DNA from: Methanomassiliicoccus sp.
Lineage (GTDB): Archaea; Thermoplasmatota; Thermoplasmata; Methanomassiliicoccales; Methanomassiliicoccaceae
DNA: 64,000 nt
Reading direction: 5' to 3'
Assembly: GCA_018262895.1 (NCBI GenBank)
Contig: JADFDJ010000005.1
Coordinates: forward strand, 62,001 to 126,000
A program made the translations under genes and the position numbers. The stretch's first letter is position 1. Each line of letters opens with the position of its first letter. The notes under the pieces are model-generated. The model saw nothing but the letters and a program-made list of their open reading frames with translations, searched no databases and had not been told where the DNA came from. This document shows, piece by piece, positions 13,606 to 30,651 of this stretch.

Positions 13606-15243
13606 TTAGGGCGATGGTCGAGCCAACGCCTCTTTTAGGTGGAACACTCCTTGGGGACAGACCATTTCACAGCGGCGGCAGGCGGTCCCATTGCATCGCT
13701 CGGAGCGAATGATGGCCAAGTTACCATCTTCCGCCTCATTGATGACCAGAGCATCCTCGGGGCATTCCTGAACACACTTGTTGCATCCGATACAGCCCTC
13801 TAGGTCAAGTTTCAGCTCGATTCCGATATCATCCAGGATGAATACTCCGAATCGACCCAGGTCTTTGATGTCCCGCTCCATCAGCTTGGAAGTGGTGGCC
13901 TTCACTGGCTGCAGCGAGATGTGAGGTAGCTTGTAGATATCCAACATGTCATTGTATGCGCTCATGGGCATACCATAGGACCAAAGGGATAGTTCGACGG
14001 CATAGATGTTCTTGAACGCTTCTGAGGTCGCGAACATGCAGTGTGTGGCCCGCAGCTGCTTGGCGAAGGACCGCAGCTCATCCATCATGGCCGGTCGCCG
14101 CACCAGCTCACTGGCCAACGATAACGAGGTGTTACCGATCTGCACGATCTGGCTAGCCTCCGCTGGGACCAGCCCGATCTTCTGGGCCTTCAGAGCATCG
14201 ACGTAAATGCCTGTGGCGCCGGACATGAAGGCTATCCTCACCTCTGATGGCTTGACCCCAGCTTGGTTCATCAAGGTGAGGTATCCCGCCCGGATGGCAC
14301 CGATGGCCTTTCCCGCCTCTGATACATCCCGTTCGGATATGCTCATTCCGTCCTGGAGGTGGAGGAGCTTATCCTTAGTGATTATCTTGGGTATCTCGAT
14401 AAGCCCCTGGTCTATGCCACTTGACAGGGTGGCAACGACCCCGGTACCCGTGATCCCCTTGGAACGGCCATGCATATCGCCCGGGGTCAATGTGCGACCG
14501 CTGCGTGGATCGACCACATCACCCCCTCGGGGGAAGAAGTCATCATCGAGGACCGAGCATGTCCATCCCTCCGAGGTGACCGCGATATCGGAGATCGCAC
14601 CCGGGGCCGCTAGCATCCCCATCTCGATCTCCTGTCCTTCCAATGCCGGTCCCGCCGCGGCCGAGCCGGTAAACACGTGCCCGTTCACTACCAGCGCCAT
14701 CTCGGCGTTGGTGCCATAGTCGATGACCAGACAGGGTTCCTCTTGCTCCATGGCACCGGTCAGCAGGAGCATGGCCAAGGCGTCGGCGCCGATCTCATGG
14801 CCGACGGCCGGAGGTATGTACACCCGAGCATCAGGAACTAGATTCAAGCCTATGTCCCGGGCAGCCACGATGTCGCCGTCACGCTTGGGAGGCTTGACCC
14901 CCAGCCTTTCCAACTTGCGCTTTCCTGCGTATGCAAGGTCCCTGACCTCAATGTTCTGGAACAGCGAGAGCTGGAAGGGATTGCCGCACACTGCCATCCT
15001 GGTTACCTTATCCAGGTCCACCCTCAGGTGTGTCAGGAGCAGGTTTATGGTGTCGATGATCAGTTTGTTTCCAACGCTGGGACCGGCCTCGATGGCGAAG
15101 TTCACGTGATCGATAACATTGGCACCGGGAAGGGGATGGCGGATGGTGATGGCGGTGGAGATGATCTCACCTGAATCCAGGTCGATGGCCTGGGCCCGAA
15201 AGCCGCTCGTACCGATGTCCAGAGCGACCCCGTACTCGCTCAT
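13606..15243 (-). CDS. ramA: Reductive activator of methylamine corrinoid proteins
   Basis: RamA uses ATP and low-potential electrons to reduce inactive Co(II) in the methylamine corrinoid proteins MtmC, MtbC and MttC. The 545-residue protein has an N-terminal domain (GVALDIGTSGFRAQAIDLDSG), an ASKHA-like core (DYGTNAEMALVVNG, GITGTGVVATL), and a C-terminal ferredoxin-like domain with two cysteine clusters (CIGCNKCVQECPEDA, CNGTACRRCEMVCPQG). Its first bases overlap the pylD end by four, so it belongs to the pyl operon. The partial gene at 1-1417 is a close paralogue. It stops at TAA in front of an AT-rich region. Confidence 0.95.
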   Translation of the reverse strand: MSEYGVALDIGTSGFRAQAIDLDSGEIISTAITIRHPLPGANVIDHVNFAIEAGPSVGNKLIIDTINLLLTHLRVDLDKVTRMAVCGNPFQLSLFQNIEVRDLAYAGKRKLERLGVKPPKRDGDIVAARDIGLNLVPDARVYIPPAVGHEIGADALAMLLLTGAMEQEEPCLVIDYGTNAEMALVVNGHVFTGSAAAGPALEGQEIEMGMLAAPGAISDIAVTSEGWTCSVLDDDFFPRGGDVVDPRSGRTLTPGDMHGRSKGITGTGVVATLSSGIDQGLIEIPKIITKDKLLHLQDGMSISERDVSEAGKAIGAIRAGYLTLMNQAGVKPSEVRIAFMSGATGIYVDALKAQKIGLVPAEASQIVQIGNTSLSLASELVRRPAMMDELRSFAKQLRATHCMFATSEAFKNIYAVELSLWSYGMPMSAYNDMLDIYKLPHISLQPVKATTSKLMERDIKDLGRFGVFILDDIGIELKLDLEGCIGCNKCVQECPEDALVINEAEDGNLAIIRSERCNGTACRRCEMVCPQGVFHLKEALARPSP

Positions 15244-16097
15244 TCTATGACCCCGACAGCCTCGAGGACCTTCTGTGACTCAGGGATCGACATAAGTGAC
15301 ATGGAGGCGGACCACACAGCCATGACCGCTACACCTATCTGCAGGGGATCGTGGACGATCATGCGTGCTCGGCGCTCTCCCTCGGCATCGTAACCATAGG
15401 GAACTCCCGGTGAGGATATGACCGCTCCCTCGCTGATCCACTCCCCCGGCACCTGTGCAGGGGATGCATTTAAGACCGCCTGGGCTTGGCCAACACCTGT
15501 CCGCATGTCATCGATCCAGTTCACGTTGGTCTCCTTGACCGCTCTCATGGCCTGCTTGTCATCGGCCTCGATCAGCGATACCTTGGCCCCCCGGGACTGG
15601 AGCCTCTTGATGGCCACGGAACCGACCCGACCTGCCCCGATAACTAGTACCTCCTTCCCTGACAGACCACCCAGCGCGGCCTCCAGGACCGAACAATAGC
15701 CGAAGGCGGTGGACCGCGTGTTGTCCGCGTACTTGCCACTGCGGAGGTTGAGCGCGATGAACTCCTTGTCATCCGCCATGAATACGATGTCCACCCCGGC
15801 CTGGATAGCCTCGGTCAGCCCGGCGATGTCACCGTTTTCGGTGACGAAACAGTCCATGCCCAGGTGCTGGGCGATGGCGCAGACGGAGCAGGAGAACGTG
15901 GGGATTATGCCTTTCCCGCTGGTGACGGGGACCGCTGCCGCCCGGACGTGGCTGATATCCAGGTCATCCCTGGTGGGGAATATTGCCTTAACTGCCAGTC
16001 CCTTGAGCGTCAGCCCTAGCTTGGTCATCAGGTCCCTGTCCCTCTCTTCCAGGCAGTAGGAGACCTCCTCTATGAGATCGGTTGTCAAACGGGTCAT
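15240..16097 (-). CDS. pylD: Pyrrolysine biosynthesis dehydrogenase PylD
   Basis: Last enzyme of pyrrolysine synthesis: it oxidises L-lysine-N6-3R-methylornithine to a semialdehyde that cyclises to pyrrolysine. The 285-residue protein has the PylD N-terminal part (ISHVRAAAVPVTSGKGIIPTFS) and a Rossmann nucleotide-binding loop, VLVIGAGRVGSVAIKRLQSRGA, at about residues 147-168. It overlaps pylC by four bases (ATGA) and ramA by four bases. All pyl genes run in the same direction from pylT. Confidence 0.96.
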   Translation of the reverse strand: MTRLTTDLIEEVSYCLEERDRDLMTKLGLTLKGLAVKAIFPTRDDLDISHVRAAAVPVTSGKGIIPTFSCSVCAIAQHLGMDCFVTENGDIAGLTEAIQAGVDIVFMADDKEFIALNLRSGKYADNTRSTAFGYCSVLEAALGGLSGKEVLVIGAGRVGSVAIKRLQSRGAKVSLIEADDKQAMRAVKETNVNWIDDMRTGVGQAQAVLNASPAQVPGEWISEGAVISSPGVPYGYDAEGERRARMIVHDPLQIGVAVMAVWSASMSLMSIPESQKVLEAVGVIE

Positions 16098-17266
16098 GTG
16101 TACCCCTCTGGTGCGGGATCATAATAGGCCAAGATCCCCTCCTTGTCGATTATAGAGCGGATGACCTTTTGCCGCTTGGCCTGGGCATCCCTCCTATTCG
16201 CCGCTACGTTGATAATGGTGGCCCTCCATCTCTTCTTCCCCGGCTCATAATCAGTGATCATCTCGTCAGAACCGAACAGCCCGGGGACGATTCGCGGCCC
16301 TTGAACCTCGGCGAAGGAACCCTCTCCGCATGACCGCATAATACCATCGTCCACCGCTACGTGCTCATAGTAGGCGAACCTCGGTTCTCCGATGGTCGGC
16401 TCTTCCAGCCGGTCCTCGACCGCATTCCTGACCAGCATGTCGATCATGTTGATGCCGTGGGAGTGGTAAACTGCCGTTGGCGTCTGACTGGGGATCCGAG
16501 CATCGATCTCCAGGATCCGGGGCACCCCCTGGGAGACGATCGCCTCCACGTCCATGATACCCTTAAGGTGGAGTTCCTGGGCCATCCTTCGCCCGGCCTC
16601 GGCTAGCTTTTCCACCACGGTTACGTCTTCTCCCTCCCATGGTGAGCCTACCATCTTGCAGTCATATGCATCATCGAGGATGATCTCGGTGGTGACGAGG
16701 GAGACCGCCTCCACGCCATTAGAGATGATCTCCACGGATATGGAGGGCCCGTCCAAGAACTCCTGGAGCACGGCCTCCTGTCCCATCTCGCGTACCATGT
16801 CCATTCCCGCCAGCAACTGCTCGGTGTTTACCGCCCGGGTCACCCCATGGCTCCCCGAGGCCTCGGAGGGCTTGACCACCACAGGGAAACCGCACTCTGG
16901 CCACGGCCGGGGAAGAGGCACACCCGCCTTGTGCATGAAGTCGTTGGACCTTGTCTTGGACGATGAGATGGAGTAGGCGTTCAGATCGAATATCAGGGGG
17001 ACATCGGAATCGCTCTGCATCGCCGTCAACGCGCTCAGGGTCTCCAGGTCCTCGTTGGCCGGGAGAATGGCATCGCAATCGGCCAGGGCATGTATCGCCT
17101 TGTCCCTCTCCCGTACCACGTCCAACACCACAGCCTCATCGGCGAGGGCCAGGGCAGGGGCCGAGGCTTTCCTGTCCACGACCATCGTCTTGATACCAGC
17201 CTTCTTGGCCAGGTACGCAGCCTCCATGCCCTGAAGCTTCCCACCGATTATGGCCAGTCGGGTCAA
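16094..17266 (-). CDS. pylC: Pyrrolysine biosynthesis ligase PylC
   Basis: ATP-grasp ligase joining 3-methylornithine to the epsilon-amine of lysine. The 390-residue protein has an N-terminal Rossmann-like part (LAIIGGKLQGMEAAYLAKKAG) and an ATP-grasp core with FPVVVKPSEASGSHGVTR (lysine contacting ATP and a glycine-rich loop), VLQEFLDGPSISVEIIS, and the metal-binding ILEIDARIPSQTP. It overlaps pylB and pylD by four bases each, which implies translational coupling. Confidence 0.96.
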   Translation of the reverse strand: MTRLAIIGGKLQGMEAAYLAKKAGIKTMVVDRKASAPALALADEAVVLDVVRERDKAIHALADCDAILPANEDLETLSALTAMQSDSDVPLIFDLNAYSISSSKTRSNDFMHKAGVPLPRPWPECGFPVVVKPSEASGSHGVTRAVNTEQLLAGMDMVREMGQEAVLQEFLDGPSISVEIISNGVEAVSLVTTEIILDDAYDCKMVGSPWEGEDVTVVEKLAEAGRRMAQELHLKGIMDVEAIVSQGVPRILEIDARIPSQTPTAVYHSHGINMIDMLVRNAVEDRLEEPTIGEPRFAYYEHVAVDDGIMRSCGEGSFAEVQGPRIVPGLFGSDEMITDYEPGKKRWRATIINVAANRRDAQAKRQKVIRSIIDKEGILAYYDPAPEGYT

Positions 17267-18345
17267 GCGAGGACCTCCACGGTCAGTCTCCTTTTCCAGC
17301 TGTTGATCAGGCCCCGATACTCGGACAGAGGGGCGATGGTGACGTTCAGCCCCTCGAGCATCTCCTCGATGTTCGTCGGTGAGCGCTCCCCGGTATCTAT
17401 GTCCAGCTCGGGCTGGGCCACGCCAGCAAGCCCTTTCTGCGGAGGGATTATGGAGGTTATCACGTTGGCCCCGGCCTCCAGGCGCGGCCTCAGGCCTTTG
17501 ACCCCCTCGATATCAAGGGAGGCCGGGATGAGCTTATTTTGATGCACCAGGCGCATCACCGCCATGGTGACCAACTCCTCCCTGAACGGCGGGGAGCGCT
17601 TCTTTTCCATGGGGGTGTTCGTCTGGGGGACGAAGGTCATGGCACGAACCTGCTGCACTCCCTGAAGCCCCATCATTATGATGGACTCGGCCCGGTCCCT
17701 AATGGTCTCGCCCACTCCGATCATGATGCCCTCTTCGGTAAGCATGCCCGCCCTCTGGGCCCATACCTTCTGGTTGTACCTCAGGTCGTAGTCCTGATGA
17801 GGCCTAAGTCGGGTGAAGAGGTCACGATTGTGAGTCTCCTGGTAACAGGCGAACCAATCTGTCCCGGCATCATGCATGGAGGCGAACCGGTCCTCCCGCA
17901 GCACACCCGGGGATGCCATAATAGGAAGCTCTACCGAGTCATCGACCGCTTGAACGATCTCCAGAAGCGCCTCGCTCCTGGCGCCGTCGTTGAAGAGCGG
18001 ATCCTCGCCCATGGTCAGGTCGATGAGATGCACACCCGCATCCTCCAGGGCACAAGCAAGCTGGATGATGTCCTCCTTGGTCTTGCGGTACCGGAAGCTC
18101 TCTTTGTTGGACTGGCGGTAGAAACAGAAGGAGCAGTTGTTGCGGCAATAGGTGGAGAAGTATACGAAGCCGTAGAGGAAAACCCGGTTGCCGAAGTTCC
18201 TCTCCTTGATCGCTCTAGCAGTTCGAAACAGTTTGGTAACGTCCTCTCCATCCTGGAGGGATAGAAGGAAGGTGATTTCCTCCTTCGTCAGGGACCCCTG
18301 ATACCAGGCTTTGTCCAAGATAGTATCTAGTGCTGTCGTGTTCAT
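17263..18345 (-). CDS. pylB: 3-methylornithine synthase PylB (radical SAM)
   Basis: Radical SAM lysine mutase that makes (3R)-3-methyl-D-ornithine from L-lysine, the first step of pyrrolysine synthesis. The 360-residue protein carries the cluster motif CRNNCSFC (CxxxCxxC) at about residues 62-69, followed by YRQSNKESFRYRKT. The GE-type motif (LTMGEDPL) and a C-terminal NITS/IPP region match PylB and its BioB/HydE-like relatives. It starts ten bases after the pylS amber stop and overlaps pylC by four bases. Confidence 0.96.
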   Translation of the reverse strand: MNTTALDTILDKAWYQGSLTKEEITFLLSLQDGEDVTKLFRTARAIKERNFGNRVFLYGFVYFSTYCRNNCSFCFYRQSNKESFRYRKTKEDIIQLACALEDAGVHLIDLTMGEDPLFNDGARSEALLEIVQAVDDSVELPIMASPGVLREDRFASMHDAGTDWFACYQETHNRDLFTRLRPHQDYDLRYNQKVWAQRAGMLTEEGIMIGVGETIRDRAESIIMMGLQGVQQVRAMTFVPQTNTPMEKKRSPPFREELVTMAVMRLVHQNKLIPASLDIEGVKGLRPRLEAGANVITSIIPPQKGLAGVAQPELDIDTGERSPTNIEEMLEGLNVTIAPLSEYRGLINSWKRRLTVEVLA

Positions 18346-18355
18346 ACTCCACTCC

Positions 18356-19183
18356 CTATATGTCGATCCGTGCTCCGTTGAGGTAGATCAAACTGCGTCC
18401 CACCGAACGGATATTGCTCACCTTGTTCTGGAGGAGCAGTATCCTTTCCAGGCCGAACCCGATCCCCGCCCATGGGTCCACGATGCCATGGGCCTCATCC
18501 ATCGGCAGCGGCCCGACCGCTCCAGATGCGAGCTCCACGCCCTCGACCTCCACGTCCACGGTGCGACCGTAGACCTCAGATTCCGTGACCACCAGCTCGT
18601 ATTCCAGGTTCACGGCCTCCATCACTGCCACAGCGTGCTCCTTTAATCGGTCCATGGCGTTCCCTTTCGGCCCCAGCTCCACCAGGTTCAGCATGGTGAA
18701 CTCCTCCAGGTGGCTGGACCCGTGCGATTCTTTCCTGAAACACGGTCCGATCTCGAAGAGCCTCATTGGCAGTGGAACGGAGCGTTTTAGGTGTCTCATC
18801 AAGAAGTAGAGGTTGGGTGCAAGCATTGGGCGGAGGCATTTCTTGGGACCTACCCAGAACACCTGCTCCAAAAGGGGATGTCCCTCGCCGATACCCATCT
18901 TGGTCAGGCTGGAGGCAGGGATCATCATTGGGGTCTTGACCTCGATGAATCCTCTGTTCACCAGCAGAGTGGCCAATTTATCCTCTAGGGCGCCGATAGG
19001 GTTCCTACTGGGGTCGTTAAACAGGCTCCGAATGCGATCACGGTTACAACCTTGTAGTACTGCGACCTCGTCCTGAAAGAAAGAATCCCTCTCACCCGCG
19101 GTGCTGAATATCGTAGCATCATCAAGGTTTCCCCCCATCTCCCTTATCCTCTGTGCCTGCGATGAGGTCAACCTGAACTCCAT
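18356..19183 (-). CDS. pylS: Pyrrolysyl-tRNA synthetase, catalytic domain only
   Basis: Class II aminoacyl-tRNA synthetase that charges tRNA-Pyl with pyrrolysine. The 275 residues correspond only to the catalytic domain; the N-terminal tRNA-binding domain of Methanosarcina PylS is absent and no separate pylSn is visible here, as in other Methanomassiliicoccales. CLRPMLAPNLY, FRKESHGSSHLEEFTMLNL (the Asn that reads the Pyl amide is kept) and GIGFGLERILLL are the expected motifs. It ends YLNGARIDI, as homologues do, at TAG (18356-18358), the codon this enzyme's own tRNA reads; readthrough would add about 48 residues before another TAG. Start is the ATG at 19183, 32 bases after tRNA-Pyl. Confidence 0.97.
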   Translation of the reverse strand: MEFRLTSSQAQRIREMGGNLDDATIFSTAGERDSFFQDEVAVLQGCNRDRIRSLFNDPSRNPIGALEDKLATLLVNRGFIEVKTPMMIPASSLTKMGIGEGHPLLEQVFWVGPKKCLRPMLAPNLYFLMRHLKRSVPLPMRLFEIGPCFRKESHGSSHLEEFTMLNLVELGPKGNAMDRLKEHAVAVMEAVNLEYELVVTESEVYGRTVDVEVEGVELASGAVGPLPMDEAHGIVDPWAGIGFGLERILLLQNKVSNIRSVGRSLIYLNGARIDI

Positions 19184-19215
19184 GCTATCCTCTCATTTAC
19201 TGATCATAATTAAGG

Positions 19216-19284
19216 CGAAGTGCCCGGGAGTTGAACCCGGCTGCCGTGGCTGTAGAGGCCTGGTGGTCACCGAACCAACACTCC
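19216..19284 (-). tRNA. pylT: tRNA-Pyl (anticodon CUA)
   Basis: A 69-nt tRNA can be folded. The acceptor pairs GGAGTGT with GCACTTC; there is a single base before the D-stem GGT/ACC; the anticodon loop is CTCTACA with CTA centred; the T arm is CCGGG-TTCAACT-CCCGG; the discriminator is G. The anticodon stem is split: an inner three pairs (GGC/GCC) and an outer two (CC/GG) are separated by an A opposite AC. This is the broken anticodon stem reported for Methanomassiliicoccales tRNA-Pyl. No CCA is encoded (CCT follows). It is the first element of the pyl operon, with a TATA-like sequence at 19312-19320 on the minus strand. Confidence 0.95.
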
Positions 19285-19780
19285 CTTATTTCATCCCCTA
19301 ATGTCCTTTCAATACTATAATCCTTTCTGTTTTGTTTACATATGTATTCAATAAACCTACATAATGCGACTCTATTTGCTAAATTTGAATTACTATGCAA
19401 TATTTATTCGTTTACAACTGTAGCTGGTTGAAAGATAAAGACTCGAATGGTAATAAAAAAGAAAGGGATGGCATGTTAAATGAGGACCTGCGACGATACG
19501 GGAACTTAGTGACGGCACGAGGAGACCATGTCATCGCCGACGATCGCTGCTGCGATCGTTGTTAAATGATGAAGGGAGGTACTTGACAGTCAGGGGTTGG
19601 ACCTCGGCGACAAACCTGCGGCATTGACGGCGTGAAAGGGATTGAGGCAGGTCCCTGACACCTGGACGAAGTCACCATAGTGCGGCTCTGACCGCGGATA
19701 GGGGTATGTCTGACAAAGCCTGCTAACTTCATAAGCTGAGATCCAGCATCATCATGATAGGTTGATAGATTAAGAAAAAA
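19285..19780. other. Intergenic region between pyl and mtt operons
   Basis: No convincing gene. The part next to pylT (19300-19440) is AT-rich and contains the pyl promoter. At 19540-19559 a perfect hairpin ACGATCGC-TGCT-GCGATCGT occurs, in a moderately GC-rich stretch (19480-19760) that lacks long open frames; it could be a small RNA or a decayed sequence. The only long frame on the minus strand has no resemblance to a protein. Confidence 0.5.
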
Positions 19781-19800
19781 AGGATCTGAGGACCAGATCC
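19773..19800 (-). terminator. Terminator of the mtt operon
   Basis: GGATCTG (19782-19788) pairs with CAGATCC (19794-19800) around a five-base loop. On the minus strand the stem is followed directly by a run of T (TTTTTTTCTTAATC). It lies 44 bases after the stop of the 50-residue membrane protein gene, so it closes the mttB-mttC-permease-wHTH-peptide transcript before the pyl operon. Confidence 0.7.
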
Positions 19801-19843
19801 TCATTTTATCATAGAGGTTTGGTTACTCGATGGCAGAAGAATG

Positions 19844-19996
19844 TTAAAACTTCGAGACGAATGTTCTTGCTTGCCAGAGCGCTAGGGCTGCTACGACGAG
19901 TACTACGATGATAAATACTGCCTCCGATCCTGGGAACAGCCCACCAGCGAAGTACGCATTGTATGCATCTACAGCTGCCTGTGATTGTATGCTCAT
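19844..19996 (-). CDS. 50-residue single-pass membrane protein at the end of the mtt operon
   Basis: A short frame from ATG at 19996 to TAA at 19844, encoding 50 residues. A 21-residue hydrophobic segment (VFIIVVLVVAALALWQARTF region, about residues 27-41 and onward) follows an N-terminus rich in Ala, Gln and Tyr (SIQSQAAVDAYNAYFAGG); the end is basic (ARTFVSKF), predicting the C-terminus inside. It starts seven bases after the wHTH gene stop, behind GGAGGG, and sits before a terminator. Small size and operon position suggest an accessory subunit for the permease at 20302-21396. No family is recognised. Confidence 0.7.
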   Translation of the reverse strand: MSIQSQAAVDAYNAYFAGGLFPGSEAVFIIVVLVVAALALWQARTFVSKF

Positions 19997-20003
19997 CCCT
20001 CCA

Positions 20004-20300
20004 TCATTTCTTGAAGAAGCAGGAGTCTCCTGCCCTTATCTTCCCGAAGTCAGTGATCACATACTTATGGAGCAAAGCGCCAGCTTTGTACGTGCCATCA
20101 TCGTCCTTCTTGACATCGATCTCCTTCAGCATGCCTCCTGCGGCCAGCTCGATGATATCAAAGTTGATAGAGTCACGTCCGTAGTTGCTGTTCATACCAT
20201 ACTCGGCCTGCACCTTCTTGACCACCTCGCTGTTCCAGTGGCTCTCCCCGTCAGAGAAGAGCTCCAGGAGCCGGAACTTGATCGGACGGTTCTTGGCCAA
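20004..20300 (-). CDS. Small winged-helix-like DNA-binding protein in the mtt operon
   Basis: A 98-residue basic protein. RLLELFSDGESHWNSEVVKKVQAEYG followed by SINFDIIELAAGGMLKEIDVKKDDDGTYKAGALLHKYVITDFGK is the helix-turn-helix plus beta-hairpin wing pattern of small winged-helix proteins, covering nearly the whole length. It begins two bases after the permease gene stop and is followed by the 50-residue membrane protein, so all are cotranscribed with mttB. A role in controlling trimethylamine genes is plausible but unproven. Confidence 0.75.
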   Translation of the reverse strand: MAKNRPIKFRLLELFSDGESHWNSEVVKKVQAEYGMNSNYGRDSINFDIIELAAGGMLKEIDVKKDDDGTYKAGALLHKYVITDFGKIRAGDSCFFKK

Positions 20301-20301
20301 A

Positions 20302-21396
20302 TCACTCCCTCCTTATCGATTGCAACTCCAGGCTCTCCTCGGTAAACATCACCAAGCTTCCGACCACGCATAGCAGACCGCCCAGGATGAGGGTCCATTC
20401 GGGAACGGTGCCGAAAAACATGAAGATGAATATCACCGCGAAGAGGCCGTAGAGGTTACCTATACCCTGCCCCCTGCCCACTCCGATAAGCGGGAAGGAC
20501 TTGTACCAGGCGACATAACAGAACCCGAAGGTGATACCCGCTATCATCAGAGCTAGCATGACCATGGGCTCGAAGATCTGGGCCGCATAGGTGAACATCG
20601 GGAATCCCGCGAGCACCAGAACCGGTATGATGATCACCCACCAGATGATGTTCTCGCCGAGGAACCTGATGGTGATGCCGATATCCGGCTCGGAGACGTC
20701 CAGTCCCTTTGCGGCAACACAGCCCTCGATGCCCCACCCGCAGGCAGCCATAATTCCGCCGATATATCCAATCAGCGAACCTCCGCCGGTTGATAGGTCC
20801 TCGATCAGGCCACCGGCGTAGATGGTGAAGCCACCTAGTATGATGATGATGATCCCCATCAAGGCCCGCTTGGATATCTTCTGGCCGAGCCATTTGTACG
20901 ATACGGCCGAGCCAATGACGGGGTACAGAAGCGCGGCAACTGCAGCAAAGGCGGCACCCACGAACCCCATCGCAATAAACGATCCTAGAATGGCTATGGG
21001 GCCACCGAAGATCGAGGCCAAAAAGTACCACTTGGTGCATGGCTTCAGCTCCCTAACGGTTCTCCCCATCTCCTTAAGCTTGCCCAATCCGCCATTCCAT
21101 ACCATTAACGCAATGATCACTGTCAGCGCGTTGAAAGCGGAAATCAATACCGCAGTGATGACCAGCGCCACTGAATCCCCATGTATGGTCGCCAGGTCAG
21201 CGAACATAGTATCGAATGGGTTCAAGACCCAAAGTGTTGTTCCTGGAATATACCACAGTCCCCACAGGACAGCACAGAAGAGGGCCATAAGGTATCCAAT
21301 CCTAACCCTCTTCTTGTGCTCGTTCTGTCGCATTACTTCGAGCTCACTATCAACTTGTTTTGTCACATTTTCTTTTCCTGTTATATTTACATCCAA
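20302..21396 (-). CDS. EamA/DMT-type permease of the trimethylamine operon (MttP-like)
   Basis: A 364-residue integral membrane protein with about ten transmembrane helices, beginning after a 35-residue charged cytoplasmic N-terminus. The two-fold repeat of five helices, with GFVGAAFAAVAALLYPVIGSAVSYKWLGQKIS in the first half, is the drug/metabolite transporter pattern. Methanosarcina mtt operons carry a similar permease named MttP, so trimethylamine uptake is the likely function. It follows mttC after a 72-base gap that contains a hairpin. Confidence 0.85.
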   Translation of the reverse strand: MDVNITGKENVTKQVDSELEVMRQNEHKKRVRIGYLMALFCAVLWGLWYIPGTTLWVLNPFDTMFADLATIHGDSVALVITAVLISAFNALTVIIALMVWNGGLGKLKEMGRTVRELKPCTKWYFLASIFGGPIAILGSFIAMGFVGAAFAAVAALLYPVIGSAVSYKWLGQKISKRALMGIIIIILGGFTIYAGGLIEDLSTGGGSLIGYIGGIMAACGWGIEGCVAAKGLDVSEPDIGITIRFLGENIIWWVIIIPVLVLAGFPMFTYAAQIFEPMVMLALMIAGITFGFCYVAWYKSFPLIGVGRGQGIGNLYGLFAVIFIFMFFGTVPEWTLILGGLLCVVGSLVMFTEESLELQSIRRE

Positions 21397-21438
21397 TGGA
21401 TCCCCTCCTGCGCCTCTCGATGAATTGAAATAAAATGG

Positions 21439-21458
21439 CCCCAGGTCAAGACCTGGGG
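21439..21458 (-). terminator. Intercistronic hairpin between mttC and the permease
   Basis: CCCCAGGTC (21439-21447) is complementary to GACCTGGGG (21450-21458), a nine-pair GC-rich stem with a two-base loop. On the minus strand CCATTTTATTTC follows; on the plus strand TTTTTGGTTTTT follows. It lies between mttC and the permease gene, so it may reduce transcription or set differential mRNA stability, leaving enzyme mRNA more abundant than permease mRNA. Confidence 0.6.
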
Positions 21459-21468
21459 TTTTTGGTTT

Positions 21469-22122
21469 TTACTTTAGGGCTGCCTTTAGTTTGTTCACTG
21501 TATCGGATGCATTCTCGGCGTAGAGGCTCGCACCGATCTTAGTGGCCCAGTCCTGAGTCACAGGAGCACCGCCTACCATGGTCTTGACCTTCTCGCGCAT
21601 CCCCTCCTCCTTGAGGAGTTCCTCGATCTTGATCTGGTTCACCATGGTGCTGGTCATCAAGGCGGAAGAGCCAATGACATTCGCATTGTACTTCTTGGCG
21701 GAGTTGATGAACTCCTTGATGGGGACGTCCCTGCCAATGTTGTGGACGTTGAAGCCTGCGATCTTCAGCATGATGGCCACGATGTCCTTACCGATACAGT
21801 GGATGTCTCCTTCGATGGTACCGATGACAACGGTTCCCAGGCCTTCACCCTCTTTTACACCACGCTTCTCCAGCTCGGGGGTGAGAACCTCGATCCCCGC
21901 GCTCATGGTCTCGGCGGCCGCGATGACGTGGGGTAGGTAGAGTATCTTGGCCTCGTACTTGTCGCCGACCTCGGTCATGGCCTTGGTGAAGCCATCCTGG
22001 ATCACATCGACGGGGTCGATGCCGGCCTTGATCGATTCCTTGGCGACATCTGCCGCCTCTTCCTGGTCGTACGCTAAGACCGCTGCCTTGGCCCTGGCTA
22101 TAATATCTTCTTTAGATGCCAT
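21469..22122 (-). CDS. mttC: Trimethylamine corrinoid protein
   Basis: Carries the corrinoid methylated by MttB and demethylated by a methylcobamide:CoM methyltransferase. The 217-residue protein has the helical cap (about residues 1-85, AAAETMSAGIEVLTPEL) and the B12-binding Rossmann domain with GDIHCIGKDIV (the axial His in DxHxxG), the SSALMTSTM loop, and GGAPVTQDWA. It follows mttB after nine bases, preceded by a GGTG-containing ribosome-binding site. The substrate is assigned from the adjacent mttB. Confidence 0.95.
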   Translation of the reverse strand: MASKEDIIARAKAAVLAYDQEEAADVAKESIKAGIDPVDVIQDGFTKAMTEVGDKYEAKILYLPHVIAAAETMSAGIEVLTPELEKRGVKEGEGLGTVVIGTIEGDIHCIGKDIVAIMLKIAGFNVHNIGRDVPIKEFINSAKKYNANVIGSSALMTSTMVNQIKIEELLKEEGMREKVKTMVGGAPVTQDWATKIGASLYAENASDTVNKLKAALK

Positions 22123-22131
22123 TTTTTCACC

Positions 22132-23622
22132 TCACTGCTGGCTCAAGAACTCCTTATCGCCCTTAGCGACGAGGGCCTTCAGCTCCTTAACAACATCCGC
22201 ATCGATGGGCTCGACCACATGAGACTTCATGATCTGGACGACCTTTTCATGGGCCACGGCCGCGAGGTCCTTGGAACCCGCGGTGATCCAGTCCCCGATC
22301 ATGTCCCTGTTGATCATCATGGGATCGGAGGGGAGGTTGATGTTCGCCATGGTGGTCTTGTGGCCGAGGAAGTTGTTGCCTATGCCGACCTTCTTGATGG
22401 CGTCTACTGCCAGGGTCTCCTCGGTTACCGGGATACCTTGCATGACCTTCTTGGTCATGGCTGCGATGTCGTTGTCTATAACTAGCTGCTCCATTGAGAA
22501 CGTCATGCCAAGCTCCAGCATGCCAGCACCATAGATGGTGTTGGCACCAGCAAGCGCGGGGAGAAGAGTGGTTATTGTCTTCTCGTGCCCTGCCTGCACA
22601 TCAGGGAGCTTGGCATCAGCCTATATGCCTGCCACGTAGGTAGGGAGTCCATAGAACTGACCTAGCTTCGCGACAGCAGCGCTGATCATACTCAATTCCG
22701 GCGAGCCTACCGGTGCAGTTCCTCTCTTGACATCGAAGGTCGTGGTGGAGCTGCCGTACCATACCGGGGCACCGGGGCATGTGATCTGGGATAGGACAAT
22801 ACCCGCTAGGACCTCGGCGTTGTGCGTGACCAGGGTTCCAGCGAGGAATATCGGTGCCGAACCGCCGGACATAGCCATGCTCAGGACATTGGTTGGTATG
22901 TTGTTGCGGGCACCCTTAATGATGACCTGGCAAGCATTATGGCTTAATTCCAGAGGGCTGGTCGGGCAGACGAGCATGGAGAACAGGGGCTTCTTGCGAG
23001 CTTCCTGCTCATTTCCACCATAGTAGGCCTTGGCCATGTCGAAGTAGTACTCCACGTTCTCGCCCACAGGGTCGATGTGGTGGAAGTGCTTTGTGGTGTT
23101 CATGATGGAGGTGTACATCTCATGCACGTCCTCCTTGCCCTTACCGGCCCAGTCTCTAGCAGAGACAGCGAGAGAATAGTAGTCGATGTTCTCTGCCCAG
23201 TCAACGATCTTAGCGGTGTCAGCAAGATCCTTGTCGGTAGAGTCCACGGTCTGGTACTGGCCGTTGCCAAGGTACTTGCACATCTTGATGCCGGTACCGA
23301 AGCATGTCCAGTGGACCTTTCCTCCGTGCTCCTGGGTCAAGGTGTTCTTCTTGTCACGTCCGTACAGCACGAATCTGGAAGGAGCAGACATCAAGGCTCT
23401 TCTGACAACATACTGAGGGATCTTGACGATCTGGGTCTTCTCATCGACCTCACAGCCAGCATCCTTGAATATCTGCCTCGCCTCGGCATCCGAAACTTGG
23501 ATACCGGGGTTCTGGAGAACATCCATTGTGGCGTAGTCGATGGCCCGTAGTCCCTCCTTGGAGAAGAGCTCTAAACCTACTCCGTCCAGTATCATTCTGC
23601 CTGGATAGTAGTGTTGAGCCAT
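22132..23622 (-). CDS. mttB: Trimethylamine methyltransferase with pyrrolysine at residue 334
   Basis: Transfers a methyl group from trimethylamine to MttC, leaving dimethylamine. The frame is interrupted by a single TAG at 22621-22623, between ...PTYVAGI and [12 protein letters not shown]. Both sides are clearly MttB, so the codon is read as pyrrolysine, residue 334. The full product has 496 residues, the usual MttB length. Start is the ATG at 23622 ([18 protein letters not shown]), behind AGAGGTTG; a longer frame to 23673 runs into the predicted TATA box (23672-23682). A conserved motif CATAGGAATGC lies at 23636-23646 near the expected transcription start. The true stop is TGA. Confidence 0.97.
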
Positions 23623-23834
23623 TTTACAACCTCTTGCATTCCTATGAATGCACAATAACCCTAATGAATACAATAATATTTAATAACATTGTAACTTGCA
23701 TACATATGATTGCAAAAGTAAAATTGATCGCTATACCACAATATAATGAAAAATAGTACATTGCCGGCTTTTTTTGCACGGCAAATAATGAATTTATGGA
23801 GGCACAGGGGCCTCATTCAGTCTCCGACGCGACC
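23623..23834. promoter_or_regulatory. mttB promoter and downstream end of the mtb operon
   Basis: On the minus strand a TATA-like ATTAAATATTA lies at 23672-23682, giving a transcript start near 23650 and a leader of about 28 bases. CATAGGAATGC (23636-23646) recurs upstream of mtbC. Further upstream, two small hairpins follow the permease stop: GAGGC/GCCTC around 23796-23816, and TTGCCG/CGGCAA around 23763-23786, whose loop contains seven T on the plus strand. They probably end the mtbC-mtbB-permease message. Confidence 0.45.
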
Positions 23835-25286
23835 TTACTTGTTGACAGCCTCCACCACTCTTAGTTTCATGGTCTCCTTGTGGCTCTCCTGTTGGGAGTA
23901 AATCCATATCGGAAGGTACATCGCAAGGATGACGATGCCCACCACGATTGCCGTCGATCCGAACTCCATACCATTGAGATACAGTATGCCCACTAGACAT
24001 AGAGGCACATTGAAGAGACCAAAGGCGATGGCCACGTACTTCCATCCGCGTGGTGCCTTGAACGGACGCTCAAGCTTGGCCATCTCTGGAGATGTGCTAG
24101 CTTTCCAGTAAGCGAACAAGCTAATCGCGTTCGCACAGGTGTACCCAATGGCAGATGCTGCCAGGATCGCAGTGGGGGTCTTCAGGGTGATCATCAGCAG
24201 GTTCAGAACACCGATGACGATCATTGCCCTTACAGGCACGCCCTTAGGGTTCAGCTTCTCCAGGAACCTAGGCAGGTTCCCCTCAGCCGCCATTGACTGC
24301 ATGGCCGTCGCGGAGCCCAAGTATGCTGTCTGGATGATCAGTATCATCGCTGCCACGAGCATGATGATCATGATCGCTCCCCCCGCATCGCCGAATGTAG
24401 CTATCGCAACTGGTAACAGGGGCGAGATAGGCTCAGCCAAAATCCCATCTACTCCCAAGGTCCCGGTAACTGACATCTGGACGAAAACAAAGGTGAACAA
24501 ACAGACGGCACCACAGGCGAACAGCGCCTTCGGAACATCGGAGCCAGGCTTTTTATACTGAGGCCCATAAATGGCTGCCGTCTCCCAGGCACAGGCGCTC
24601 CATTGAGCAATACCGAAAAGTCCCAGGATTATCAGAATGCCATTTAGGTCCCAATTCCAATCTGTAGGCATAATGTTGGTGGTGATGTTGTCCCAGTGGA
24701 ACGTTCCTGTGGCAAATGGAGCGATCGCAATGACGATTAAGGGGACAAGAGATGCCACGGCCAAAACCAATCCCACTCTGGCACCATTAGCCAGACCGCG
24801 GGAGTTGATTAGAACAAGGAAGGTGAATATTATGGCACCGGCGATCAGGGAGAGGACAACATAGTCTACATTGGCCAGCTCTGGGATCAGACCCTGGAGA
24901 TAACTGCCGACCAAGAGAGAAAAAATGGCAAGAACTGGGTTCCAAGCAAACCAGTAGCTCCAAGCACTGAACCCCCCGATAAGCTTCCCGCGATCATATT
25001 TGACATTCTTCTTTCCCGCAAACACTTGCTGGGCAAATCCTGGAAGGCCTGAGGCCTTAGGAAATGCAGTGGCAAGCTCGCCATAAGCTAGATTCTGCAT
25101 AAATCCTTGAAAAACAGAGAGGCCCCAAAGAATAATGGCAGCAACCCAAAGATAACTGGCCGTGTAACCAATCGAGGGCAATATAAGAAGAGGTACCCCT
25201 ATTGCGATGGCCAAGCCCTGTTTCCAGTCTATGCTTCTGATGAGCTCGTTGACTCCAACACTCGAACTTACCTTCTCTTCGTTCAT
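23835..25286 (-). CDS. APC-family permease of the dimethylamine operon
   Basis: A 483-residue integral membrane protein with about twelve to thirteen transmembrane helices and the amino acid/polyamine transporter pattern: an N-terminal GLAIAIGVPLLILPSIGY helix, the discontinuous helix region AYGELATAFPKASGLPGF, and AMQSMAAEGNLPRFLEKLNPKGVP, the conserved cytoplasmic loop of the superfamily. It is the third gene after mtbC-mtbB, so dimethylamine or another methylamine is the likely substrate. It is unrelated in sequence to the EamA-type permease of the mtt operon. Confidence 0.87.
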   Translation of the reverse strand: MNEEKVSSSVGVNELIRSIDWKQGLAIAIGVPLLILPSIGYTASYLWVAAIILWGLSVFQGFMQNLAYGELATAFPKASGLPGFAQQVFAGKKNVKYDRGKLIGGFSAWSYWFAWNPVLAIFSLLVGSYLQGLIPELANVDYVVLSLIAGAIIFTFLVLINSRGLANGARVGLVLAVASLVPLIVIAIAPFATGTFHWDNITTNIMPTDWNWDLNGILIILGLFGIAQWSACAWETAAIYGPQYKKPGSDVPKALFACGAVCLFTFVFVQMSVTGTLGVDGILAEPISPLLPVAIATFGDAGGAIMIIMLVAAMILIIQTAYLGSATAMQSMAAEGNLPRFLEKLNPKGVPVRAMIVIGVLNLLMITLKTPTAILAASAIGYTCANAISLFAYWKASTSPEMAKLERPFKAPRGWKYVAIAFGLFNVPLCLVGILYLNGMEFGSTAIVVGIVILAMYLPIWIYSQQESHKETMKLRVVEAVNK

Positions 25287-25351
25287 CTGGACATCTTCAC
25301 CTCCGCATATAATAAATAAAATGAGTAAAGGGTTTCAGCTAGACTGTGCGC

Positions 25352-26755
25352 TCACTTCATCTGCTTTCTGAACTTGTCGCAGCAGTTGATCTTTATCCCG
25401 AGCAACTTCTCGATGTTCATCTTGGCGGCATGGCCCTTGGGGGCTCCGGCCACGGATGTGATCACACCGATCCCAAGATTCTCTCGAACCTCTCTCATGA
25501 CATACTCGTCACTCAGGTCGAAGGTCGAAACACCGAGCTTCTTGGCCACATATTCTTTGGCAGGCTTGAGCCTCATGGACTTGGAGAACTCCATCCTGGC
25601 AACTAGGTCACCGGCAGCTCTTATTCCGCTCATACCACTGGTCATGATATGAGTGATCGGCATACCCATAGGGTCGCCGACCCCAACCTATATGCCGTCT
25701 ACTCCCGCGACCTCCACCATGGCCTTGCTTGCGTGAGACACAGCGTCAACGGTAGGAGTTTCGAACATCGGGATACCACCGACACCCATACCCATGTTCA
25801 CATGACAGGGAATTGGAGACTCCTTCACCGCAGCCTTGACGAAAGTTACCGCCCGACCAAGGTTCCAAGGTGATGACTTGCTGGTGTTGGTATTGACGAC
25901 AGGACCGAATATGTTGGAGCCTGCCTTGGCCAGAAGCTTGGCCTGCTGATGTGGCCATATCCCTGCAAGGAGCTGACCATTGTATTCTAGTTCACCATGC
26001 ATGCCGAGTACCATCTCTCCAGCCATGCCGGTCTCTATATACATCTTAGGGAACTGCTTTCTTAGGGCTTCGACCGCATGTAGAGTTGCATAGAGATCGC
26101 CATCCCCAGCTGCTCCCGTGGTATCGAAGTTGACCCCGTCCGCTCCCGCCTTCATCATCCTCTGCATGATCCAGACCATGTCGCGGGTCAGATGCTCAGC
26201 GGACTTCTCGGTCATCTCCTGGGCTTCCTTGATCTTGAAGTTCTTCATCAGGTCCCCAGGGTTCTCGAACGGGCCGTCAGGCGTGTAGTACAGTCCCATG
26301 TTGGGCATCGCACCATAGAGAATTGGCACGATCATGTTCTGTTGCACCACTTCCATGGCCTGCATCTCATTGGATATCACAGGTTTTACGGGCTTGAAGC
26401 TATAATCGATGTGACCTAGCTCCATGGTATCAGCGCCCATCGCCCTCTCGTGGAACATCATGCCCACGAGCCTGCTGGATGGGATGCCCACACCGCTGTT
26501 GCCCTGGTCACCGTCCAATCTAATGGTCCCAATATCATGAGTGACCGGCACTTCCATGCCCGTTTCTACACCTACCATCCTTCCAGGCGTCATCAGGATC
26601 TCAGCGAGCTTATCCAGCTCGTCTGAGCTGAGAGCTGGGACAGAACCGAGCTCACAAGCATCGTTCATCCCATCCTGGAGGTCGTCACGGATCTGGTTCT
26701 TGGTTAGGAAGAGCCTTTGTCCGTCTCCTCTTCGCAACGCATATTCTGTCATCAT
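25352..26755 (-). CDS. mtbB: Dimethylamine methyltransferase with pyrrolysine at residue 356
   Basis: Moves one methyl group from dimethylamine to MtbC. The gene contains one in-frame TAG at 25688-25690, between EVAGVDGI and [14 protein letters not shown]. Both flanks match MtbB, so the complete product is 467 residues with Pyl356, the length and position known for MtbB. It starts [22 protein letters not shown] at the ATG at 26755, nine bases after mtbC. The catalytic Pyl sits in a TIM-barrel cavity. It ends in TGA, 65 bases before the permease gene. Confidence 0.97.
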
Positions 26756-26764
26756 TCTTCCTCC

Positions 26765-27412
26765 TTATTTTATGCCGAGCAGTTCGTTGGCCTTCCTAAC
26801 GGCCTCACCGGCATTCTCACCATAGCCGTCAGCACCGATCTTGTCCGCCCAGGCCTGTGTTGCCGGAGCGCCTCCGACCATGACCTTTACCTTGTCGCGA
26901 ATCCCCTCTTCTTTGAGCATTTCTATGCATTCCTTCTGACCCTGCATGGTCGTGGTCATGAGCGCTGACATGCCGATCATACGACCGTTCTCGGCCTTGC
27001 AGGTGTCTATGAAGTTGCGCAGAGGAACGTCCCGTCCAAGATCGAAGACCTTGTATCCAGCGCACTGCAGGAGCGTGGAAACGATAGACTTCCCAATATC
27101 ATGGACATCTCCCTCTACCGTTCCGGTGACGCAAACTGCCAGCGCCTCCTTTCCACCGCTCTTTGGCAGGTCCTGTTCCACTACCTTTACACCCGCGGTC
27201 ATCGCATCGGCAGCCACCATAACATGGGGCAAGAACAGCTTTCCGCGCTCGAAACGAACGCCTACTTCGTTCATGCCGGCGGCCAGAGCGTCGATGATCT
27301 CCTGGGGTCCCATCACCGTTCTAGCCTTGTTAACTGCCGCTAAAACCTTTTCCTTATTGTATGCGACGATCGCGTCAAACAACTCGATTTTGGATGACTC
27401 CACAGTTGTCAT
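26765..27412 (-). CDS. mtbC: Dimethylamine corrinoid protein
   Basis: Corrinoid protein partner of MtbB. From the ATG at 27412 (MTTVESSKIELFDAIVAYNKEK) it has 215 residues; a GAGGT ribosome-binding site lies just upstream, and the longer frame to 27502 would start inside the leader. The helical cap domain is followed by EGDVHDIGKSIVSTLLQCAGY (the His ligand in DxHxxG), MSALMTTTM and GGAPATQAWADKIGADGY. It is the first gene of mtbC-mtbB-permease, divergent from mtmC across 328 bases. Confidence 0.95.
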   Translation of the reverse strand: MTTVESSKIELFDAIVAYNKEKVLAAVNKARTVMGPQEIIDALAAGMNEVGVRFERGKLFLPHVMVAADAMTAGVKVVEQDLPKSGGKEALAVCVTGTVEGDVHDIGKSIVSTLLQCAGYKVFDLGRDVPLRNFIDTCKAENGRMIGMSALMTTTMQGQKECIEMLKEEGIRDKVKVMVGGAPATQAWADKIGADGYGENAGEAVRKANELLGIK

Positions 27413-27740
27413 ATCATACCTCTCTGTCGTTGACGTGGGCAAAAATACGCAGCCCAATGCGCATTGATAGAAGGCTTTGTTGATATTTGTATCTTTGGGC
27501 AATCCTATGCATACATTTGAAATTTATTGTATCTAGTTACATTTTTATTGATCTTAGAGGGCTGTCGAGCCCTTATTGAAATAACCTGGCTAAGCCTTTT
27601 GATGTCAGGGTCGATCTCCAAAATCCATAATATCATGGAATATTTTGAAGTGCGAGGGGATGCAATAATTATACAATTGCACGTGATACCGATTGAAAAT
27701 CTTTAATAGTTGAATGCATATGCATACACAGGGAAATTTC
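27413..27740. promoter_or_regulatory. Divergent promoters of mtbC and mtmC
   Basis: No gene. For mtbC (minus) an AT-rich GATACAATAAATTT lies near 27522-27535, and the motif CATAGGATTGC at 27499-27509 falls near the expected transcription start, giving a leader of about 90 bases. For mtmC (plus) CTTTAATAG at 27701-27709 is TATA-like, and GCATATGCATACACAGGGA (27716-27734) lies at the expected start, giving a very short leader. The TGCATA element is common to both sides and to the mttB promoter, so a shared regulator may bind. Confidence 0.5.
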
Positions 27741-28379
27741 ATGGATAAAAAATCGATATTAGCGGATCTCAAAATGTCAGTTGAGACGTGGGACGTCGAA
27801 CTGGCTAAAAAGAGTGCCCAGCAAGCAGTGGATGCTGGTATAGCTCCCGGTGAAGCTGTTGAGAAAGGCCTCGGGGCTGGAATGGAGACGATAAGTCAGA
27901 AGTTCGATGCGGCCGAGATATACCTTCCTCAGGTGCTTGCGGCGTCGACCGCCATGGAAGCTGCACTGAAGGTCTTCGAGCCCCACATGAAAGGCAACTC
28001 GGTCGCAACCAAGGGTACTGTCGTGATTGGCACGGTCTTCGGTGATATCCACGAGATCGGCAAGAACGTCGTGGCGGCCATGCTCACAGGAGCGGGTTAC
28101 AAGGTGATCGATCTCGGGCGGGACGTCCCCATCGAGAACTTTGTCGACGCTGTGAGGCAGAACAAGGCCGACGTCGTCGGTGCCTCCGCGCTGATGACCA
28201 CAACCGTCATCGGGCAGAAGGAGATCCTCGAGATGATGAAAGAGGAGAACGTGGTCGCAAAGAGCATCTTTGGTGGTGCCCCCTGCAATGAGGAGTGGGT
28301 GGCCAGCATCGGCGGAGATGCCTACTGCGCGTCCGGCGGAGAGGCCGCTGCACTGGTGGCCAAGCTAATCAAGGGGTGA
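27741..28379 (+). CDS. mtmC: Monomethylamine corrinoid protein
   Basis: Corrinoid partner of MtmB. From the ATG at 27741 (MDKKSILADLKMSVETWDVEL) it has 212 residues; the frame extends upstream to 27714 but those codons overlap the promoter element. The helical cap domain precedes FGDIHEIGKNVVAAMLTGAGY (axial His), SALMTTTVIGQKEILEM and GGAPCNEEW. mtmB follows after four bases. The cap and B12 domains are colinear with MtbC and MttC in this window, so the three are paralogues each tied to its own methyltransferase. Confidence 0.95.
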   Translation: MDKKSILADLKMSVETWDVELAKKSAQQAVDAGIAPGEAVEKGLGAGMETISQKFDAAEIYLPQVLAASTAMEAALKVFEPHMKGNSVATKGTVVIGTVFGDIHEIGKNVVAAMLTGAGYKVIDLGRDVPIENFVDAVRQNKADVVGASALMTTTVIGQKEILEMMKEENVVAKSIFGGAPCNEEWVASIGGDAYCASGGEAAALVAKLIKG

Positions 28380-28383
28380 AAAA

Positions 28384-29760
28384 ATGGCAGCTTCAAGACC
28401 GGTCAACATCTTCGAGACCTACGAGCGCTCTCTGAAGGGGCCTAAGGTCGTTGAGAAGGACTTCGACTACAACATCCTGCCGACCAACCTGATGAAGATC
28501 AAGCAGAAGTATAACATCAAGTTCGGTAAGGAGATAATCCCTGAGGACAAGGAGCTTATGAACAACCTGTTCCTCGCGGGAATGGAGATGCTCGTTACCA
28601 CCGGCATGTACAATGCCGATACCCAGAAGATCATCCGCCTCACCGAGGAGGAAGTGATGGAGGGGATAAAGAAGACCCCCAAGAACCTGGTGCTCGGCGA
28701 GGGACGGGACGCGGCTCGTTTCGATCCCCGGCATGGCAACGAGGCAAGGAAGCCCATTATTCAGGGAGGGCCAACAGGAGCACCGGTGTCGGAGGACATA
28801 TTCATCCAGGTCATGCAGTCCTATGCTCAGGAGGCGGTCGTGGATACCCTGGTCAATGGTGTGATGAACACAATAGAGGGTCACCCCGCGAAAACCAACA
28901 CCCCCTGGGAGATTAGAGCGACGATGGCCGAGCTAAGGGCTGTCAGGGAGGCCAGGATACGTGCTGGTCGCCCGTTCATGGGTATATAGGGCCCGGAGAC
29001 CCCGCTGTCCGCAGCGGGACGTCTCGCTGGAGATCTCCTCGGAGGTCAGAGGACCTGCGATGCCCATGAAGTTTCCCAACTGAACGAGCTCAAGATCGAC
29101 ATGGCAGGCCTAAATATGATCGCGGGATGGACCGCCAATGGGGACACCATCATGGTCGAGCAGATGCCCATCTTCGGTGGCTACACCGGCGGTGTGGAGG
29201 AAACGGCCATCTGCGATGTGGCAACGACCCTGGCCTCCTTCTCCCTGCTCTCTGGTAACTTCCACCTGGATGGACCGATCCATATCCGCTGGGGTATCAC
29301 GACCGCGAGGGAGACATTGAAGATCGCGGGCCATGTGGCCGCGGCCATAGATGCCAACACCGATCTCCTGATCGCGAACCAATACTACCCTGTTGCTGGA
29401 CCATGCACGGAGATGTGCCTGCTGGAAACTGCAGCTCAGGCCATCACGGACACTGCATCCGGACGTGAACTTCTATCTGGTTCCGCTGCCGCCAAGGGTG
29501 TGGCTCAGGATTACACCACTGGCATGGAAGCAAGGATCATGGGAGAGGCCGCGATCGCAACTGCTGGCATGAAGGTGTCTAAGGTGAACGATATCCTCGA
29601 GGCGCTGATCAGCAGCTACGAGAAGGATTACGCCAAGGCACCCAAGGGAAAGAACTTCCGTGAGTGCTACGACGTGCAGAAGGTGACCCCCACCCAGGAG
29701 TACCTCGAAGTATACGATAGAGCGGTAAAGAGGCTCGAGGACTTTGGACTCCCCATGTAA
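28384..29760 (+). CDS. mtmB: Monomethylamine methyltransferase with pyrrolysine at residue 202
   Basis: Transfers the methyl group of monomethylamine to MtmC, releasing ammonia. A single in-frame TAG at 28987-28989 separates ...AGRPFMGI from GPETPLSAAGRLAGD. Counting through it gives 458 residues and Pyl202, exactly the length and position of the structurally known MtmB. After the amber codon 37 codons precede the next ATG, and the sequence there (CDAHEVSQLNELKIDM) is typical MtmB, so this is not a start-stop pair. The true stop is TAA, followed by a pyrimidine-rich TTTCTTTTTTTTCTAACTTTTTT that probably ends most transcripts. Confidence 0.98.
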
Positions 29761-29827
29761 AGCTAATTCCTCCTCATAAACCACTTTCTTTTTTTTCTAA
29801 CTTTTTTCTGATTAGGAAGGTTTCAGG

Positions 29828-30472
29828 ATGAGAATAGGGATCATAGCATGCGAGATACTCAAGAACGAGATCGAACAGCTCATAGAGGGCGATCCTGAGG
29901 TGATCCATCGTGAGTACCTGGAAATGGGACTTCACGATCAGCCCGAGGTCCTTCTGGATACCCTGACCAGAAAGGTAAACGATCTCGAGGGCAAGGTGGA
30001 CATCGTGTTCCTTGGCTATGCCATATGCAAGTCCTTGAACGATATCCCATCCAATCTCAAGGTACCTATCGTAATGCTTAGGGAGGAGGATTGTGTAGCA
30101 TCGATGCTAGGCCCCCTGGAGTATGCCCATGAGAGGTCAAATTGTCCTGGGACATGGTTCTCCTCACCTGGCTGGGCAATTCTGGGGATAGATGCTGTAG
30201 TTGACGACAGGCAGATGGAAGGGCTGGAAGAAATGGGATTCGATAAGATGTACTTCGTAAAGAAGGAACTGGAGGCATATACCCGTTGCCTTTACATCGA
30301 TACGGGAGTACATGACGATGGGAGCTACCAGGAGCGGGCGCGAAATTTTGCTGAAATGACCGGTCTAAAATTCGAATGCCGTAAGGGGGACATCGTATCG
30401 ATCAAGAGGGCGTGGCAGTTGGTCAAGTCCTATCGGGGAACCGACACCATCGACCCCGTCTCTAAGTCGTGA
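29828..30472 (+). CDS. DUF1638 family protein next to mtmB
   Basis: A 214-residue soluble protein of the DUF1638 type. It starts MRIGIIACEILKNEIEQLIEG and contains VDIVFLGYAICKSLNDIP, VMLREEDCVASMLGP and NCPGTWFSSPGWA, where conserved Cys, Asp and Glu look like metal ligands. Genes of this family commonly accompany corrinoid methyltransferases; a role in corrinoid or metal supply has been suggested but not shown. It is 67 bases after mtmB on the same strand, behind an AGGAAGG ribosome-binding site. Confidence 0.85.
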   Translation: MRIGIIACEILKNEIEQLIEGDPEVIHREYLEMGLHDQPEVLLDTLTRKVNDLEGKVDIVFLGYAICKSLNDIPSNLKVPIVMLREEDCVASMLGPLEYAHERSNCPGTWFSSPGWAILGIDAVVDDRQMEGLEEMGFDKMYFVKKELEAYTRCLYIDTGVHDDGSYQERARNFAEMTGLKFECRKGDIVSIKRAWQLVKSYRGTDTIDPVSKS

Positions 30473-30651
30473 TCGGGCATCATATGACGCATCTTCGAAT
30501 GCTTCATTGATATGATCGTCTTCTCATTAAGATGCGGGCCGTATGCGGGACGTAAACCGGGTTTAAGCTAATATATGATAAGTACGATTTGCCGCAGCAA
30601 CCGCAAGGAAATAAAAGACTTTATAGTGTTAAGAGGGTTTGTCGGTTGGAA

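Follow-up and report, generated by a model that had tools for sequence, protein, structure and literature searches.

A conserved amber stop at the end of pylS, in the sequence context of decoded pyrrolysine codons, as a possible site of readthrough feedback in one family of Methanomassiliicoccales

Does the gene for pyrrolysyl-tRNA synthetase (pylS) end at an ordinary stop, or at a codon that the activity of its own product causes to be read? The question is raised by a stretch of 64,000 nucleotides from a Methanomassiliicoccus sp. (hereafter the window), in which pylS ends in TAG, the amber codon decoded as pyrrolysine (Pyl). Two papers (PMC8211752, PMC9723677) treat it as an unresolved matter how Pyl-decoding cells keep from translating every UAG stop as Pyl. 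In what follows, G000 is the genome of the window, f1 is its family, and f5 and f6 are other families of the order. The operon lies on the minus strand in the order pylT-pylS-pylB-pylC-pylD, followed by a 545-aa open reading frame (ORF) that we take to be ramA-like. Its relevant features are as follows:

19214-19284, minus strand: tRNA-Pyl gene (pylT), anticodon CTA
18359-19183, minus strand: coding part of pylS, 275 codons, a stand-alone catalytic domain (18356-19183 with its stop)
18356-18358, minus strand: amber codon ending pylS, putative site of Pyl-tRNA-dependent readthrough
18355-18361, minus strand: ATA TAG G, the seven bases also present where mtmB, mtbB and mttB have their decoded Pyl codon
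18218-18355, minus strand: readthrough tail, 46 codons after the TAG, offset by one base from the pylB frame and not conserved
18215-18217, minus strand: second TAG, the end of the tail, inside pylB
17263-18345, minus strand: pylB, starting 10 bases past the pylS stop, with the purine-rich GGAGTGGAG between stop and start
16094-17266, minus strand: pylC, the next gene of the operon
15240-16097, minus strand: pylD

At its 3' end pylS reads GAC ATA TAG (amber at 18358-18356), followed by GGAGTGGAGT and the pylB ATG. The original prediction had the product ending in YLNGARIDI at this TAG and pylB beginning ten bases beyond it, and both statements agree with the sequence. Its proposed extension of about 48 residues does run to a second TAG inside pylB, but comprises Pyl plus 46 residues, 47 in all. 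The 275-residue protein scores 285.3 bits against TIGR02367 (pyrrolysyl-tRNA synthetase, catalytic domain; curated cut-off 178.15), and its closest named record, from Methanomassiliicoccus sp. UBA6, shares 77% identity. Residues 3-274 align to positions 6-276 of the 276-residue solved PylRS chain 8ifj_A. As the alignment reaches the end of solved chains, termination at the TAG yields a complete enzyme. One end of contig C13 of the same genome (L113, 1-77) carries an exact copy of 77 pylS bases (window 18859-18935) and then diverges, which may be an assembly edge or a partial copy.

A search of the order gave 97 pylS matches in 93 of 147 genomes, and the stop was read for 90 of the 97 matches; those left out (G088, two in G049, G064, two in G089, and G082) are mostly fragments. 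Fourteen of the 15 f1 genes end in TAG and one in TGA, while TGA ends 69 of 71 genes in f5 and all four in f6. The original prediction had made conservation of the amber among relatives, as against TAA or TGA, a touchstone: relatives do use TGA outside the family, in f5 and f6, and the amber prevails within f1. The comparison is confined to Methanomassiliicoccales, with the pylS stops of Methanosarcina and bacteria outside it. In a set of 389 genomes sampled from the phylum, pylS had no match beyond the order, although the control, Methanosarcina acetivorans, did match; none was found in plasmids or viral contigs, nor was mtmB in plasmids.

The two f5 ambers are of different kinds: G105 has a pylS end like that of f1 but reads ATT TAG, and in G043 (L090) the usual stop is absent, so that the frame continues for 18 codons to a TAG overlapping the next start and PylS carries a natural 18-residue C-terminal extension. 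The sole TGA in f1 belongs to the second pylS copy of G015, on contig 4; its copy on contig 23 ends in ATA TAG G. For M. luminyensis, PMC5688252 describes pyl genes together with mtb/mtt genes on contig 23 and, on contig 4, a further pyl cluster flanked on either side by a copy of mtmBC. By this cluster layout G015 seems to be M. luminyensis, in which case the isolate would carry one TAG-ended and one TGA-ended pylS, a natural test. In a tree, the f1 pylS genes fall into two pyl cluster types, and the amber occurs in both. G000, G017 and G019 are close relatives (63 proteins) but differ in cluster type, G019 having both, which points to differential loss or transfer. An amber common to the whole operon was rejected, as pylB, pylC and pylD of f1 end mostly in TGA.

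The amber might simply be an ordinary inherited stop, the TAG of the family's ancestor being slow to change and occasional readthrough being tolerated without function. In favour of this, the genomes concerned make frequent use of TAG as a stop, at 6-25% of stops per genome. By greedy ORF calls it makes up 17-28% in f1, f6 and genus g19 against 4-9% in three f5 genomes, and 19% in G000 (91 of 468), to be set against 14 of 15 in f1 pylS. Passages of Borrel et al. give 11% for M. luminyensis (PMC3941956) and 1.6% for M. alvus (PMC4153887). As a background, 94 orthogroups with members in 8 or more of the 15 f1 genomes were assembled from the sequence (up to 20 kb per stretch) surrounding pyl, two ribosomal operons, fpo, rpoB and ATP synthase. 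TAG was near-fixed in only two of them, pylS and the N-terminal part of mtmB that ends at the decoded Pyl codon; in the remaining 92 its share reached at most 5/9. Stop identity is often kept in this family, with one stop in at least 90% of members in 42 of the 92 groups, as inheritance would have it, yet in no case among these 42 is TAG the fixed stop. Moreover, where one genome has TAG, another has it too in 180 of 193 pairs in pylS, versus 316 of 1018 in the other 92 groups.

When a model of stop-codon substitution is fitted to the full set of 92 groups, 14 of 15 TAG has P = 0.13 if the root was TAG, a value that inheritance can accommodate, and 0.012 otherwise. Fitted to the 42 groups in which the stop lies, for the most part, clear of the following start, the model gives 0.006 (TAG root) and 0.0009 (otherwise) at the middle time scale, and 0.0003-0.081 and 0-0.013, respectively, over three time scalings. 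The latter null is the better matched, since the pylS stop overlaps no next start in most genomes; all of these counts come from related genomes and are hence not independent. The stop is conserved beyond background, as looked for in autoregulatory recoding, in that pylS alone is near-fixed for TAG among the 93 groups other than the decoded mtmB codon, at P = 0.006 under the better-matched null but 0.13 under the broader one. Conservation of the TAG is by itself suggestive and not decisive.

What inheritance leaves unexplained is the ATA before the TAG, as at decoded Pyl codons. The window offers three such codons for comparison:

28987-28989, plus strand: decoded Pyl codon of mtmB (28384-29760), GGT ATA TAG GGC
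25688-25690, minus strand: decoded Pyl codon of mtbB (25352-26755), GGC ATA TAG GTT
22621-22623, minus strand: decoded Pyl codon of mttB (22132-23673), GGC ATA TAG GCT

With the pylS stop in the context GAC ATA TAG GGA, all four sites share ATA TAG G. This context, a feature that emerged from the present analysis and not an established criterion, is found at 12 of the 14 TAG-ended f1 pylS genes, and a G follows the TAG in 13. The favoured isoleucine codon is ATC; ATA accounts for 409 of the 1808 Ile codons counted in those G000 genes that belong to the orthogroups. Nevertheless, the Pyl codons at 28987, 25690 and 22623 and at the f1 loci examined all follow ATA regardless of this preference: the Ile before the decoded codon in f1 is ATA in 16/16 mtmB, 4/4 mtbB and 5/5 mttB, while at other conserved Ile columns of these genes ATA always stays below 90% (4/5 at the highest). 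Likewise, ATA is the last codon before the stop in 12 of the 13 f1 pylS genes that end in Ile; across the seven further Ile columns conserved in pylS it accounts for 20 of 96. The f1 stretches contain 353 ORFs that end in TAG, and in 41 of them the codon before it is ATA: 12 pylS genes, two ORFs without homologs and 27 methyltransferases, the last recognised by sequence and as a class partly set apart by their ATA. By comparison, ATA precedes none of the other 209 homolog-supported TAG-ended ORFs of f1.

The pattern extends beyond f1, with some relaxation. When the Pyl codons were instead read by alignment, ATA stood before 32 of the 33 from all families combined, the single exception being GTC in f5. 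At mtmB Pyl codons ATA precedes 10/10 in f1 and 3/3 in f6, and f5 is looser, with GTT, GTC, GTA, ATG and ATC also present. From these sequences, it is possible that ATA before UAG is a rule by which cells tell Pyl UAGs from stop UAGs. Two observations speak against a Pyl-readable stop at pylS. Three relatives (G108, G138 and G141) end pylS in ATA TGA, so ATA at this position is not tied to TAG alone, and a PYLIS scan of 15000-31000 gave three matches, all at methyltransferase codons (that at mtmB under the gathering score) and none at pylS. Taken together, we consider the inherited stop a credible account, if rather an unlikely one.

The seven bases could alternatively be held by a nucleotide constraint apart from decoding, such as pylB initiation, the overlapping pylB frame or a binding site. 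The bases behind the TAG are likely the ribosome binding site of pylB. For 11 of the 14 TAG-ended f1 genes, the pylB ATG is found 10-16 bases beyond the stop. G017 and G020 have no ATG, GTG or TTG close behind the stop, and pylB could begin there at a TTG that overlaps the end of pylS, which would suit such a constraint; the 11 genes with a separate ATG do not. TAA or TGA ahead of GGAG would be equally suitable for a ribosome binding site, and the TAG persists where its flanks have changed (ATC TAG GCG in G018 and GTC TAG CAG in G022, the two TAG-ended f1 genes without ATA). Furthermore, ATA TAG also stands inside mtmB, mtbB and mttB, with no start behind it. We therefore regard a constraint of this sort as improbable. 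A promoter reading of ATATA was rejected as well: the pylB start is too near by the usual promoter spacing, and the string also occurs inside the methyltransferase genes.

Does the sequence behind the amber matter? In the 12 ATA-TAG genes the tail spans 26-50 codons, and in the two without ATA it is a single codon (G018) or 364 codons, all of pylB (G022). Of the 14 TAG-ended genes, 12 have pylB one base out of the pylS frame, and G015 has it two bases out. In G022 pylB is in frame, so readthrough would give a PylS-PylB fusion. Synonymous shuffles of pylB often reached the observed lengths (the 12 tails that span 26-50 codons have P values of 0.10-0.60), giving no sign of selection on the tail. 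The tail was thus rejected as a conserved domain, its sequence and length both varying and its length not exceeding what the shuffles allow, and pylS lacks a mark of decoded Pyl codons, namely a protein sequence that is conserved before as well as after the TAG. This absence of selection speaks for an inherited stop. It also makes it very doubtful that extended PylS is a second functional form, of altered activity, stability or partner, made purposely when Pyl is plentiful: tails of 26-50 codons in 12 of 14 genes would fit, but those of 1 and 364 codons, and lengths so readily attained by shuffling, do not. As the tail is not conserved, any function resides in the decoding event. The original prediction consequently fares differently in its two parts: the amber, conserved in f1 and set in the context of decoded Pyl codons, stands, whereas the tail as a functional part does not.

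The conservation of the amber in f1 and its decoded-codon context together make readthrough at the pylS TAG likely, as far as can be judged from sequence. The explanation that we favour, at just short of even confidence, is that the pylS stop in f1 is a Pyl-readable amber kept in ATA TAG G, with readthrough feeding back on PylS, pylB or both. When Pyl-tRNA is scarce, ribosomes would terminate at the UAG, release complete PylS and be able to re-initiate at pylB, whose start in the clear cases follows after about 10-16 bases. When it is plentiful, some ribosomes would insert Pyl, run over the start of pylB out of frame and terminate soon after, within pylB, so that PylS would gain a tail and pylB would receive fewer ribosomes. 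Both effects would lower Pyl charging, and charged Pyl-tRNA, once in good supply, would limit how much more of it is made; what is selected would be the decoding event and not the tail. We infer the readthrough, the lost coupling to pylB and any loss of PylS activity through the tail from conserved bases, operon layout and frame offset. Counted against this explanation are the P of 0.13 under the broad null, the relatives with ATA TGA, the missing PYLIS match and the unconserved tail; in addition, frequent readthrough would leave much of the PylS extended. A broader version, in which AUA-UAG-G is read as Pyl and other UAGs stop, the mark at the pylS end letting Pyl-tRNA throttle PylS and/or pylB, is more tentative still and on balance unlikely.

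New here is the sequence setting, ATA TAG G, of the pylS amber. A literature search that covered little of the subscription literature found no paper on the pylS stop or on an AUA rule before UAG, which is weak evidence of novelty. AUA is fixed ahead of decoded UAGs, is missing ahead of ordinary UAG stops and is less strictly kept in a family poor in UAG stops, a pattern that can be tested concretely and at little cost. The end of pylS may be where the cell gauges how much pyrrolysine it has. If pylS does use the mark as a sensor, the genetic code expansion cassette would contain its own feedback loop, in which the end product acts at the ribosome and the 22nd amino acid is the signal. In practical terms, ATA TAG G may help to raise the incorporation of Pyl or non-canonical amino acids.

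Several known systems bear comparison. Bacterial prfB, which encodes RF2, is autoregulated via an in-frame UGA. As there, a gene of the decoding apparatus bears a codon whose reading its product governs. However, prfB needs a frameshift to make its enzyme, whereas ordinary termination makes PylS, and the pylS stop would be read by a cognate suppressor tRNA. Autoregulation of bacterial termination factors is mentioned in a passage of PMC3521657. According to the same source, the class-I release factor genes of Mimivirus and Megavirus resemble pylS in that a conserved stop and its context argue for readthrough and the product acts on stop codons, but those stops are internal, must be passed for the protein to be made and do not involve Pyl, while the pylS stop is terminal. 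In Acetohalobium arabaticum, also a Pyl-decoding organism, Pyl supply is regulated, through expression of the cassette with trimethylamine; feedback at a pylS stop codon is not described in the passages concerned (PMC8211752, PMC4153887). Finally, the Pyl codons of mtmB, mtbB and mttB differ in that the protein continues and is conserved on both sides and a PYLIS model matches there, whereas pylS has an unconserved downstream frame and no such match; what they have in common with the pylS stop is ATA TAG G, in the same genomes and with the same tRNA.
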